Made by a program: the position numbers and the translations under genes
Notes under the pieces: generated by a model
Told to the model about the DNA's origin: nothing
The model's database searches: none
The model's input: only the letters and a program-made list of their open reading frames with translations
Part shown: piece after piece, positions 38,570-42,171 of the stretch
How the letters are laid out: every line of letters begins with the position of its first letter
Position numbering within the stretch: the stretch's first letter is position 1
NCBI GenBank assembly: GCA_014360495.1
Contig: JACIXR010000001.1
Location: 248,001 to 312,000, forward strand
Origin: a bacterium
GTDB lineage: Bacteria > Armatimonadota > JACIXR01
DNA length: 64,000 nt
Reading direction: 5' to 3'

Positions 38570-38665
38570 AAGAAGACGAAGAGGAAAAATAACCCTTTTC
38601 CCCTTATCCAGAAAGCATTTCTAAAAGGCTGAGAAAATGGGTAAGCCCTTAAAGATAGATAACCC

Positions 38666-38694
38666 TTGCCATAAAAAGAATCTTCAATTAGACT
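38666..38694 (+). promoter_or_regulatory. promoter of the tandem GH-like gene (leaderless type)
   Basis: TTGCCA (38666-38671), 17 nt, TAGACT (38689-38694), ending 8 nt before ATG 38703. It supports the downstream start, which also gives the better signal peptide. Confidence 0.4.
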
Positions 38695-38702
38695 TCTTTT
38701 TA

Positions 38703-41090
38703 ATGATAAGAAAAAATTCTCTTCTCTTCTTGCTCTCCATCTTCTTTATTTCCCTTTCACATCCATCCACCATTGGAAAATGGAAATGCGTGAGCAACTA
38801 CATTCCCTATCCTCAGATAAACTATGATTTAAAGGTTTGGGAGAAAGACCTTGAAGAGATAAGGAAAGCTAACTTCAACGCAGTCTGGCTCGTCAATGTT
38901 TGGGCGGAGATTCAGCCTTCCCTTGACCCGCCCATTTTTAACGAAGAGCGTTTAAAATGGCTAAGGGGTGTTTGCAGGAGAGCCCAGGAGAAAGGATTGA
39001 CAGTTATCCTCGCCCTCGGCTATGTGGGTGAAGGCTGGGCGCCCAAAGGATTAGATGAGCAAATCTGGCCAATAATGCCAAAACAAGTTGAAAGTTATAC
39101 AAGTTTTCTGAGAAAGATTGCTCATATCACAAAGGATTTTCCCAATGTCGTCTATCTTCTCGCCTCCGAGGAAATCCTCCCCGCAACCCTCCTTTATCAC
39201 CCCGATAAGAGAGGGGAATGCATTGATGCTTTCAAAAAATGGGCAAGGGAAAGGAATTCAGATATAGAATATTGGAACAAGCGATGGGGAAAATCTTTCA
39301 CTTGGGAGACATTCAAGCCCCTCTCAACAGATGAACGGTCAAAATGGGAGATTTGGATGGACCACTATCTCTGGTTCGCCTCAATTCTCCGCCAAATTCT
39401 GCCGCCCATGGTTAAGGCGATTAGGGAGGAGAGACCGAATGCCATAGTCGGCTTCCACGATTTCCTCTTAGACCCCGTCTTGCCTCCCCCGTCTCCCAAC
39501 GAGGCATCTCTCCCCATCCCAAATCCCTTTGACTTCTACAGCATAGGTTACTATCTGGACCCCAAGTTAACGCTTTTGGAAAACCTTGAGGCTATGCAGA
39601 GGAAGATAGATTTAGCGAGGAGATTATACCCAACTCTTCCCCTTTGGATGGGCGAGTTGGGAGCGGATGTAGAAACTGTGGGGGAAAAGAAGCAGAGGCA
39701 TTGGTTGAATATCTCCATTTCCTCTTTGAAAAAACAGGGAATCGGCTATTCAATTTGGAATTGGCGACATTACATTGAGCGAGGGACCTCCTCTTTCAGC
39801 TTGTTGAGAAAGGACGGCTCCCCTCGCCCAGCATTAGAGGTGGTGAGAAGGTTGAACAAAAGCGAGGATAAACCCTCCTCTCTTTTCCTTCCAAATGGCG
39901 AACCGCTACTCTCCATTTATTTCTTTGGGCATTGGTGGGAACCTTGGAAGAGCGATGATTCAGCGATAAGAAGGGATTTGAGAAGGCTAAGGGAGTTGGG
40001 CTTCAATACCCTACTTTTGGACCACGAGTTCTCCCAAATGCTTGACGGGAATTGGAAATGGCTTGATAGGGAGCATAGATTGGCGAAAGAGGAGGGGTTT
40101 TACATCGTTCCCTGGCTGGAGGCTCATTGTGGTAGGGACATCTCCGCCCATTACGAATGGAGGATGGAATGCGCGAGCAGGCTTTACGGAATCCCCCCAA
40201 TTGCATTGACAATTAATCAAAAAGGGGAAACAACTCAAGCGAAGGTTTATAGCGAGGAATTCAAGGAGTATCTCGTCTCCTATGTCTCCTCCTATCTTGA
40301 GAGATATTTGAGGGATGGGAAAATATTGAGAGTCATCTGGGAAGGGAAGGAGCGTCCCGTCATCTCCCTCTCCTGCGAGATGGACTTCACCGCTTTTGAC
40401 GAGGAGACGAACCAGCTTTTCCGAGAATGGTTAAGGAAGAGGTATAAGGGCGATATAAAATCATTGAACGCCCTTTGGGGAACCTCCTTCAGCGATTTCT
40501 CACAGATAGACCCAAGGGATGAGAGGATTTTTGATTATTCAAGGGTTGACCAGCCAATCCAGCCCATCCCCGTCGTTGAGCATTCTCGTTTTAGAGCGGA
40601 GCTATGTAACTCCGCTTTCGCGGAAATAAAGAAGAGACTGAAAAAGAGGTATCCCGACCTTCTTTTCTTAGCAGAGGTTCCCTATCAGTTCGGCTCCCAG
40701 CATCCCCATGCGCTTAGCTATCAATGGAGCTGTGGCTGCTTACCCGAGATAGTTAGGTTTGCGGATATTATTTTGATAAGGGGAACGCAGGGGAGGTTGA
40801 CGAGGGAAGAGAGGGAGGAGATAAGGAAGCTGAGGAGAAGGGGGCAGAAAGTGATTTACTGCTATAGGGTCAGCAATTGGATAGACGCTGAATTCGGCAG
40901 GGATATTGCGGAGATAGGAGATGGGCTGGGATATTATAGTTGGAACGAGATGGTTGATTGTCACATAGTGGAGAATCCCGTTGGCGTGGGAAGGGAGGAG
41001 TTCCGCATATCAGCTGAGATGTCAAGGGAACTCATAGAGAGGGTGAAATCGGCGAATCTGGCTTATGTTGAAGAGATAAAGAAGCGTTGA
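38703..41090 (+). CDS. secreted tandem GH42-like double-barrel protein
   Basis: About 795 aa from ATG 38703, whose first residues IRKNSLLFLLSIFFISLSHP are a signal peptide; ATG 38637 is in frame but adds a hydrophilic 22-residue lead. Module 1 (about 25-385) has a GH42-like barrel, with candidate acid/base E156 or E157 in LASEEILP, YWNKRWGKSF, and candidate nucleophile E318 in LWMGELGAD. Module 2 (about 395-795) repeats the plan: LRRLRELGFNTLLLD, CEMDF (E559), SLNALWGTSFSDF, and FLAEVPYQF (E658). Two barrels in one chain suggest a duplicated or bifunctional beta-galactosidase-type enzyme. Substrate is unknown. Confidence 0.65.
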   Translation: MIRKNSLLFLLSIFFISLSHPSTIGKWKCVSNYIPYPQINYDLKVWEKDLEEIRKANFNAVWLVNVWAEIQPSLDPPIFNEERLKWLRGVCRRAQEKGLTVILALGYVGEGWAPKGLDEQIWPIMPKQVESYTSFLRKIAHITKDFPNVVYLLASEEILPATLLYHPDKRGECIDAFKKWARERNSDIEYWNKRWGKSFTWETFKPLSTDERSKWEIWMDHYLWFASILRQILPPMVKAIREERPNAIVGFHDFLLDPVLPPPSPNEASLPIPNPFDFYSIGYYLDPKLTLLENLEAMQRKIDLARRLYPTLPLWMGELGADVETVGEKKQRHWLNISISSLKKQGIGYSIWNWRHYIERGTSSFSLLRKDGSPRPALEVVRRLNKSEDKPSSLFLPNGEPLLSIYFFGHWWEPWKSDDSAIRRDLRRLRELGFNTLLLDHEFSQMLDGNWKWLDREHRLAKEEGFYIVPWLEAHCGRDISAHYEWRMECASRLYGIPPIALTINQKGETTQAKVYSEEFKEYLVSYVSSYLERYLRDGKILRVIWEGKERPVISLSCEMDFTAFDEETNQLFREWLRKRYKGDIKSLNALWGTSFSDFSQIDPRDERIFDYSRVDQPIQPIPVVEHSRFRAELCNSAFAEIKKRLKKRYPDLLFLAEVPYQFGSQHPHALSYQWSCGCLPEIVRFADIILIRGTQGRLTREEREEIRKLRRRGQKVIYCYRVSNWIDAEFGRDIAEIGDGLGYYSWNEMVDCHIVENPVGVGREEFRISAEMSRELIERVKSANLAYVEEIKKR

Positions 41091-41093
41091 AAA

Positions 41094-41136
41094 AGTATTG
41101 ACATAGTATTGACAGGGTTTAAAATTGAGATAAAAT
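41094..41136 (+). promoter_or_regulatory. prepilin 2 promoter with tandem -35 boxes
   Basis: AGTATTGACA occurs twice with an 11-base period (41094-41103 and 41105-41114). The second TTGACA (41109-41114) is 16 nt from TAAAAT (41131-41136). The predicted start near 41143 gives a leader of about 200 nt before ATG 41347. Confidence 0.55.
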
Positions 41137-41167
41137 GATATTAACATAGATTAGTGGGTGCAATAAA

Positions 41168-41251
41168 ATGTTTATGGAAATGCAAAATGATATACGAGAA
41201 AAATCGCTCCTTTTAAAAGGGAGAGATTTCTCTCTCTCTCTCTCTCTCTGA
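41168..41251 (+). CDS. possible 27-aa leader peptide containing a TC microsatellite
   Basis: ATG 41168 follows AGTGGGTG at 41153-41160, a rough ribosome binding site. The 27-codon frame starts MFMEMQNDIREK and ends in Ser-Leu repeats encoded by the TC run. Its TGA (41249-41251) is formed by the last T of the run. Repeat-number changes would move the stop. There is no homology I recognise. It may be a regulatory leader peptide or a chance frame. Confidence 0.3.
   Translation: MFMEMQNDIREKSLLLKGRDFSLSLSL
41229..41249 (+). repeat. (TC)10.5 dinucleotide microsatellite
   Basis: Twenty-one bases of perfect TC repeat in the prepilin 2 leader. It is preceded by GAGAGA, which can pair with its first bases. 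Tracts of this length are prone to slipped-strand changes. Confidence 0.95.
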
Positions 41252-41280
41252 TACCTTTGCTCCTTCTATTTTAGGCTTCA

Positions 41281-41317
41281 ATTAGCCGAGCCATCAGATG
41301 GCTCGGCTAATTTTTTT
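41281..41317 (+). terminator. intrinsic terminator or attenuator in the prepilin 2 leader
   Basis: Inverted repeat TTAGCCGAGCCAT/ATGGCTCGGCTAA (41282-41294 and 41298-41310; 14 bp including the A-T at 41281/41311) with loop CAG. It is followed by T7 (41311-41317). It lies only 14 nt before the prepilin ribosome binding site and downstream of the best promoter, so it must be read through for prepilin 2 expression. Otherwise it simply ends the upstream glycosidase transcript. Confidence 0.88.
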
Positions 41318-41346
41318 AAATCCAAAAAGAAAGGAGGTGAGAAAGG

Positions 41347-42171
41347 ATGAGAAGGAACGGTTTCACTCTCATCGAGCTCCTCGTCGTCATAGCTATCATC
41401 GCCATTCTAGCGGCGATTCTCTTCCCTGTCTTCAGCCGTGCTCGGGAGCAGGCTCGAAAAACAGCTTGTTTGTCCAATACGAAGCAGATAGGAACCGCCC
41501 TCCAGATGTATATGCAGGATTGGGATGAAACTTTCCCCTATGCCCCCAAGCCCTGTTGGAGTGTAGGGCCAGGTAATCAAACTTGGCTGTTTTGGACGGA
41601 GATGCTCTATCCCTATGTCAAGAATTGGCATGTCTTTAGCTGCCCCAGTATGCCTTCGGATTCCCACTCCGCTTGGCCCGCCTGCTGCTGGCCCACGAGC
41701 AATCCAAATTGCAGTAGACCTCAGAACTCCCTGACGCCCTGCAATGTGGGTGTAAAATGCGCCTACGGGATAAGCGACCTCGCTTTGAGCGGAACCTTCT
41801 GGTGCCAGGGAAAGTCAGGCGCTCTTAAATTAGCAGATATCAAAACACCAGCTGAATATGTCGTTATCGGAGACTCCTCCAATGGTTATGTAGCTCCCTA
41901 TCTACAAGTGGATGGAATGGTTGTTATGTTCGCCTTCGCTAATGCTGTGGCGGGTAGCAATCCAGGCATAGAATGTTGCGTAGGCGGTTGGGGTTGCAAT
42001 CTCACCGATTTGCAAACTGCAATAGACAAATCCGCTCGCCATACGGGTGGTTCCAACCTCATATTTATGGATGGACATGCGAAGTGGTATAAGGCAGACC
42101 AGATAAAGCCGATGGTCGCTGGAGGTAAGCTGCGCATCTGTCATTGGGACTTGGTCTGGGCGCCTCAATAA
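41347..42171 (+). CDS. type IV pilin-like prepilin protein, DUF1559 type (copy 2)
   Basis: A 274-aa prepilin close to the copy at 16418 in its first 50 residues: RRNG then [20 protein letters not shown], with cleavage after G5 and E10 conserved, then [19 protein letters not shown] and QDWDETFPY. The C-terminal [19 protein letters not shown] is the DUF1559 ending. The central globular part differs strongly from copy 1 and is rich in cysteine, so the two probably form different surface structures. AAAGGAGGTGA precedes ATG 41347. The leader contains a microsatellite and a terminator hairpin. A 12-bp G/C terminator follows the gene. Confidence 0.85.

Follow-up and report, generated by a model that had tools for sequence, protein, structure and literature searches.

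A leader ORF with a TC microsatellite and a following terminator as a probable phase-variable attenuator of a prepilin gene in Armatimonadota

The leader of an H-X9-DG/DUF1559 prepilin gene in an uncultured bacterium of the phylum Armatimonadota (positions 41094-41346) is probably a phase-variable transcription attenuator, a reading to which we assign a probability of roughly three in four. It lies in a stretch of 64,000 nucleotides, the window in the following, which belongs to contig C1 of a draft genome with a length of 2.55 Mb and a completeness of 97% (G000). The evidence comes from the anatomy of the leader, from its paralogs in the same genome and in a sister species, and from a pilus switch in Streptococcus gallolyticus that works on a comparable layout.

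The elements of the leader are listed in Table 1. The initial annotation had described a promoter, a 27-codon ORF ending in a (TC)10.5 tract, and a terminator with a 14-bp stem and seven T residues. The promoter is present and actually occurs in two overlapping copies, and re-reading of the coordinates of ORF and tract showed them to be correct. The T7 run of the terminator was likewise found, behind a stem that is slightly longer than given, namely 15-16 bp. Its arms (41280-41295 and 41297-41312) are predicted to fold with -23.4 kcal/mol, the T7 run occupying 41311-41317. The Shine-Dalgarno sequence of the leader ORF is weak (GGGTG, 7 nt 5′ of the ATG), and that of the prepilin, a strong GGAGG, begins 15 nt past the T-run. 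A consensus scan of the plus strand detected no promoter between tract and prepilin, so that transcription starting at the upstream promoters has to pass the hairpin. In addition, the sequence CTCCTTCT (41258-41265), located after the tract, is complementary to AGAAAGGAG (41327-41338) at the prepilin Shine-Dalgarno site. The two are paired in the minimum-energy fold, which would make a second, translational layer of control possible.

Table 1. Features of the prepilin leader and related elements. Positions refer to the window unless a genome and contig are given.
Feature	Position	Strand	Basis or remark
GH42-like gene, 5′ flank of the leader	38637-41090		
11-bp tandem repeat at the promoter pair	41094-41114	+	repeat scan
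Two overlapping sigma-70-like promoters, TTGACA-16-TAAAAT	41098-41136 (41098-41125, 41109-41136)	+	11/12 matches each
Leader ORF, 27 codons (MFMEMQNDIREKSLLLKGRDFSLSLSL, then stop), present frame, predicted OFF	41168-41251	+	similarity to paralog leaders
Upstream hairpin AAATC.CTCCTTTT/AAAAGGGAG.GATTT, with GAGA/TCTC extension into the tract	41196-41233	+	MFE and centroid fold
(TC)10.5 microsatellite, perfect, proposed frame switch	41229-41249	+	homologous (CT)n tracts in G002 leaders
Family-frame continuation SDTFAPSILGFN, stop TAG 41283-41285 (+1 unit)	41252-41285	+	frame reading
Predicted intrinsic terminator, 15-16 bp perfect stem, T7	41280-41317	+	equivalent hairpin in seven other full leaders
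Prepilin Shine-Dalgarno region GAAAGGAGGTGAG	41329-41341	+	conserved among prepilin paralogs
H-X9-DG/DUF1559 prepilin, 3′ flank of the leader, gene proposed as controlled	41347-42171	+	prepilin assignment
Non-leader tracts of at least seven TC units	G002:C5:5309-5324, G002:C96:11113-11134, G001:C13:501-514 (L211, L223, L213)		ORFs without Pfam match
Type-2 sites, examples	G000:C8:10527-10599, G000:C2:271422-271496, G000:C7:69946-70022, G001:C2:6984-7057		plus 19 further

The length of the tract determines where the leader ORF ends, and the frame arithmetic of the initial annotation proved right. The present stop is TGA at 41249-41251, 28 nt before the hairpin; one additional unit moves it to TAG at 41283-41285, inside the hairpin, and one unit fewer to TAG at 41272-41274, 5 nt before it. 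From this arrangement we infer that the leader ORF is translated, that transcription terminates at the hairpin, that the tract slips in living cells and that prepilin expression depends on these events. Transcription would start upstream of the leader ORF and would have to cross the intrinsic terminator to reach the prepilin gene. Ribosomes on the leader ORF would compete with folding of the terminator, and slipped-strand changes in the TC tract would set where these ribosomes stop. In the present state, the ribosome would leave at 41251, the terminator would fold and the transcript should be terminated near 41317 (OFF). An additional unit would make the ribosome stop within the 5′ arm, where it would block the hairpin and allow transcription of the prepilin (ON). 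As a refinement of the original proposal, loss of one unit should likewise prevent folding and give the ON state, because the stop would lie only 5 nt before the hairpin and a gap of 4 bp is ON in the streptococcus.

The window ORF does not stand alone. About 44 prepilin-like paralogs (H-X9-DG/DUF1559) are present in the window's genome, some of them in tandem and with leaders of several kinds. By leader comparison, the ORF is a member of a small family of leader ORFs preceding such genes, here termed type 1. A profile search detected type-1 ORFs in the window's genome and in the sister species G002, not in G001, and none outside the genus among 291 genomes of the phylum. The DNA similarity of the window leader to a leader on contig G000:C8 reaches significance by itself (E=3e-4). 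At the homologous position, G002 leaders carry (CT)10, (TC)11 and, in a third case, (CT)5, and C/T-rich codons take this place in leaders that lack a long tract. Between the (CT)10 and (CT)5 leaders, identity is 98% over the 50 nt before the tract and 93% over the 180 nt after it, and nevertheless they differ by 5 units. Thus, change has been much faster in the tract than in its flanks. Unit numbers, taken from single consensus assemblies (one per species, two of the three fragmented), differ among paralogs and between species; the paralogs have very different tract lengths, in place of the invariance among relatives that the initial annotation had named as evidence against switching.

The reading frames vary as well. 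All members without a long tract are in the family frame, whereas the tract-bearing ones are found in mixed frames: the window leader and G002:C122 in the predicted OFF frame, G002:C154 in the third frame and G002:C23 in the family frame. The motif ILGF(N/S), which the window would encode in the family frame, recurs in the leader ORFs at G000:C1:328742 and G000:C8:24754 (read by eye). The codon-position bias after the tract is slight and the coding constraint there is weak, as expected if the length of the peptide matters and not its sequence.

Long TC tracts are rare in these genomes. A 12-mer of the tract occurred five times, compared with 0.11 in shuffles. When both strands were searched, the tract of the window was the only one with at least seven TC units in the 2.55 Mb genome (about 0.15 expected). 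G001 contains one and G002 four such tracts, which makes six in the three genomes of the genus. Three of these six are located in type-1 prepilin leaders, at the same place and in two species. In the other three cases, the tract lies at the 5′ end of a longer ORF whose N-terminus resembles a signal peptide (Table 1). Two of these ORFs are paralogs with 8 and 11 units, both in frame, and one is apparently out of frame; in this case, on G001:C13, an ATG with a good Shine-Dalgarno sequence is out of frame with the remainder of the protein (read by eye). Judged by their sequences, these non-leader tracts are likely to be cases of ordinary coding-frame phase variation. Throughout the phylum, tracts of at least seven units occur in 19 of 151 genomes, a count that includes the three of this genus; elsewhere in the phylum, none of the inspected loci precedes a prepilin gene and several are located near the N-termini of ORFs.

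The hairpin is conserved along with the ORF. A stable hairpin with a T-run (-16 to -27 kcal/mol) is present in each of the eight full leaders; it starts 29-34 nt after the tract, and the T-run is weak in G002:C122. The window hairpin differs in sequence from those of the paralogs. In the seven ungapped paralogs, the window excluded, the register of the stem is kept, with 88.6% of the cells pairing compared with 37-59% when the strands were slid against each other. Nine cells of this stem represent double, compensatory changes, a number that 5 of 500 shuffles equalled or exceeded. In each of the eight leaders, one of the three frames has its stop 18-29 nt upstream of the hairpin and is predicted to be OFF; the stops of the other two, predicted to be ON, lie 0-5 nt upstream of it, inside it or past it. 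The leaders share ancestry, and the frame pattern therefore does not amount to eight independent observations. In most of the paralogous leaders, the long frame extends across the hairpin, which is followed by a pseudoknot RNA. Taken together, the ORF, the position and lengths of the tract and the hairpin spacing seen among paralogs, along with a proven precedent, support the suggestion of the initial annotation that the leader is a phase-variable attenuator.

Other explanations were weighed against the attenuator. It appears unlikely that the leader ORF is decaying or neutral, that the tract arose accidentally by replication slippage and that the hairpin is an ordinary terminator with a limited effect. 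Such a history would agree with the shortness of the window ORF, its position outside the family frame and its TAG where paralogs have GAG or GAA, with the weak coding constraint past the tract, and with a G001 ortholog devoid of tract, ORF and terminator. However, it fits poorly with the fact that, of only six tracts of at least seven units in the three genomes, three occupy the same place in leaders of two species, and with hairpin register and distance conserved through compensatory changes. Furthermore, the off-frame stop abutting the tract has been kept through different codons in the two species, TGA in one and TAA in the other. This stop also points to frame as the relevant property and argues against an action of the UC-rich tract as RNA, by Rho loading or by a change of the upstream hairpin, in which tract length would tune termination gradually. 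Rho has a preference for pyrimidine-rich YC sequence, and in the predicted fold the upstream hairpin includes the paired 5′ end of the tract, but leaders without the tract keep hairpin and T-run, so that the intrinsic terminator suffices, and we regard a purely RNA-level role as highly improbable. The family could also encode a real protein of about 60 residues that is switched by the tract, with secondary effects on the prepilin. The 38 codons past the tract are conserved in length without indels, and the paralogs share motifs such as FMRxDxKRxCQ. Yet the protein has no Pfam match and the synonymous excess is slight, and the family frame of the window is only 39 codons long, its end lying inside the terminator. 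The Shine-Dalgarno-like AGAGGTGG/AGAGGCGATG codes for the KRxCQ segment (read by eye), which may thus be kept for RNA reasons. A protein function of this kind is therefore considered quite improbable.

Further candidates were rejected for the window. The tract does not switch an N-terminal extension of the prepilin, as every window frame ends 61 nt or more upstream of the gene; a reading open into the prepilin was found only for G002:C122 with one additional unit. Translational coupling through an overlapping stop does not apply to the window, and it is possible in G002:C154, where the stop lies 4 nt before the prepilin start. An Rfam identity of the window leader was also rejected: no match reached the gathering score, and the sub-threshold ylbH match (27 bits, cut-off 50) is on the opposite strand. 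In 16 paralog loci, Rfam models matched only tRNAs and one cobalamin riboswitch.

The attenuator is not the only regulatory element found upstream of these prepilin genes. In G001, the GH42-like gene, the prepilin gene and a fucosidase gene are syntenic with the window and 75, 84 and 87% identical, and the prepilin leader contains neither a tract nor a type-1 ORF nor a terminator of this kind. The switch is therefore not essential to the prepilin. This leader instead harbors an element termed type 2, an H-type pseudoknot located just before the ribosome site of the prepilin. In most copies it includes an inserted hairpin, CGCCGGAAAGACCGG. The pseudoknot is of the GCCCCC/GGGGGC type, and many copies are preceded by a Shine-Dalgarno sequence and an ORF of 3-5 codons that terminates at the base of the first stem (read by eye). 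A covariance model built from 19 copies located 23 sites in the three genomes of the genus, all 23 upstream of prepilin genes, and gave only two marginal hits in 118 other genomes searched. The stem pairs covary strongly, with 93.7% pairing compared with 46-62% when slid, and 20 double-change cells, a number reached by none of 500 shuffles. In a pseudoknot scan, the scores of many leaders exceeded the highest among 55 shuffles; a permutation test on the pseudoknot strands is biased, since their pairing had been the criterion for choosing them. The members scanned had no match in Rfam, and the type-2 element is possibly a new cis-regulatory RNA. It follows the attenuator in the type-1 leaders other than that of the window, and in the window itself the model (R1) found no type-2 pseudoknot. 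Tentatively, the prepilins of this genus may be run by interchangeable leader cassettes that can be swapped between orthologs, one being a randomly switching repeat attenuator and the other a new uORF-linked pseudoknot RNA. If true, the same prepilin would be phase-variable in one species and controlled by a pseudoknot RNA in another.

Two further observations concern the prepilin paralogs as a whole. A cobalamin riboswitch is located directly upstream of one paralog (L053 406-576, G000:C3 near 63.9 kb), and similar riboswitch sequence was seen by eye in the sister-species leaders L192 (G001) and L193 (G002). In addition, many G002 contigs (e.g. C31, C81, C40, C106) break near prepilin codons 54-67, as if near-identical repeats had stopped the assembly, and gene conversion among prepilins is possible.

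In Neisseria, opa genes are simple-sequence-repeat contingency loci with the tract in the coding frame of the gene itself. The window leader resembles loci of this type in that slipped-strand change of a short repeat would switch a surface protein by frame. In contrast to them, it is the frame of a leader ORF that would be switched here, with an effect on transcription of the next gene. As in trp-type attenuators, leader translation would control folding of an intrinsic terminator; the determinant, however, would be the position of the stop codon as set by tract length. The window peptide has no run of regulatory codons, and the predicted fold consists of two independent hairpins with no evident antiterminator.

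The closest parallel is the pil1 leader of S. gallolyticus, and the idea put forward here is thus not new in kind. In that organism, the switch was proven experimentally by mutants of the terminator, of the leader start and of the leader stops, as well as by chloramphenicol, and its mechanism was called original by the authors (Danne 2014, PMC3894217). With 22 repeats, the leader stop is 39-49 bp upstream of the terminator and expression is low; with 21 repeats the stop is 4 bp upstream and with 23 repeats inside, and expression is high in both cases, while natural isolates with a spacing of at least 28 nt behave like the low form (PMC3894217). The geometry of the window, with stops 28 nt before, 5 nt before and inside the hairpin, corresponds to this pattern. 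Like the pil1 and pil3 loci, the window has a promoter upstream, a short leader ORF containing a repeat with a unit length not divisible by three, which shifts the stop, and a predicted terminator before the pilus gene. By analogy, the window leader most likely works like the pil1 switch.

The two systems also differ. The repeat is a TC dinucleotide here and a GCAGA pentanucleotide in S. gallolyticus, and the genes behind it encode H-X9-DG prepilins in Armatimonadota and sortase pili in a Firmicute. Repeat unit and pilus class, both of which descent from the pil1 leader would have to preserve, are thus different, and no sequence homology to that leader was seen. In Armatimonadota, the proposed switch would involve several paralogous leaders. 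A search of open-licence papers found no second independent case of the pil1 type, which is weak evidence. If the attenuator is real, its recurrence in a distant phylum of environmental bacteria, in several leaders and in two species, built on a dinucleotide repeat and in front of another pilin class, would point to a general solution that evolves repeatedly. It would imply stochastic switching of the surface in a bacterium for which host immunity is probably not the selective force. It would also provide a simple rule by which genomes can be scanned: a leader stop at least about 18-28 nt upstream of the hairpin would mean OFF, and a stop nearer to it, inside it or past it would mean ON.
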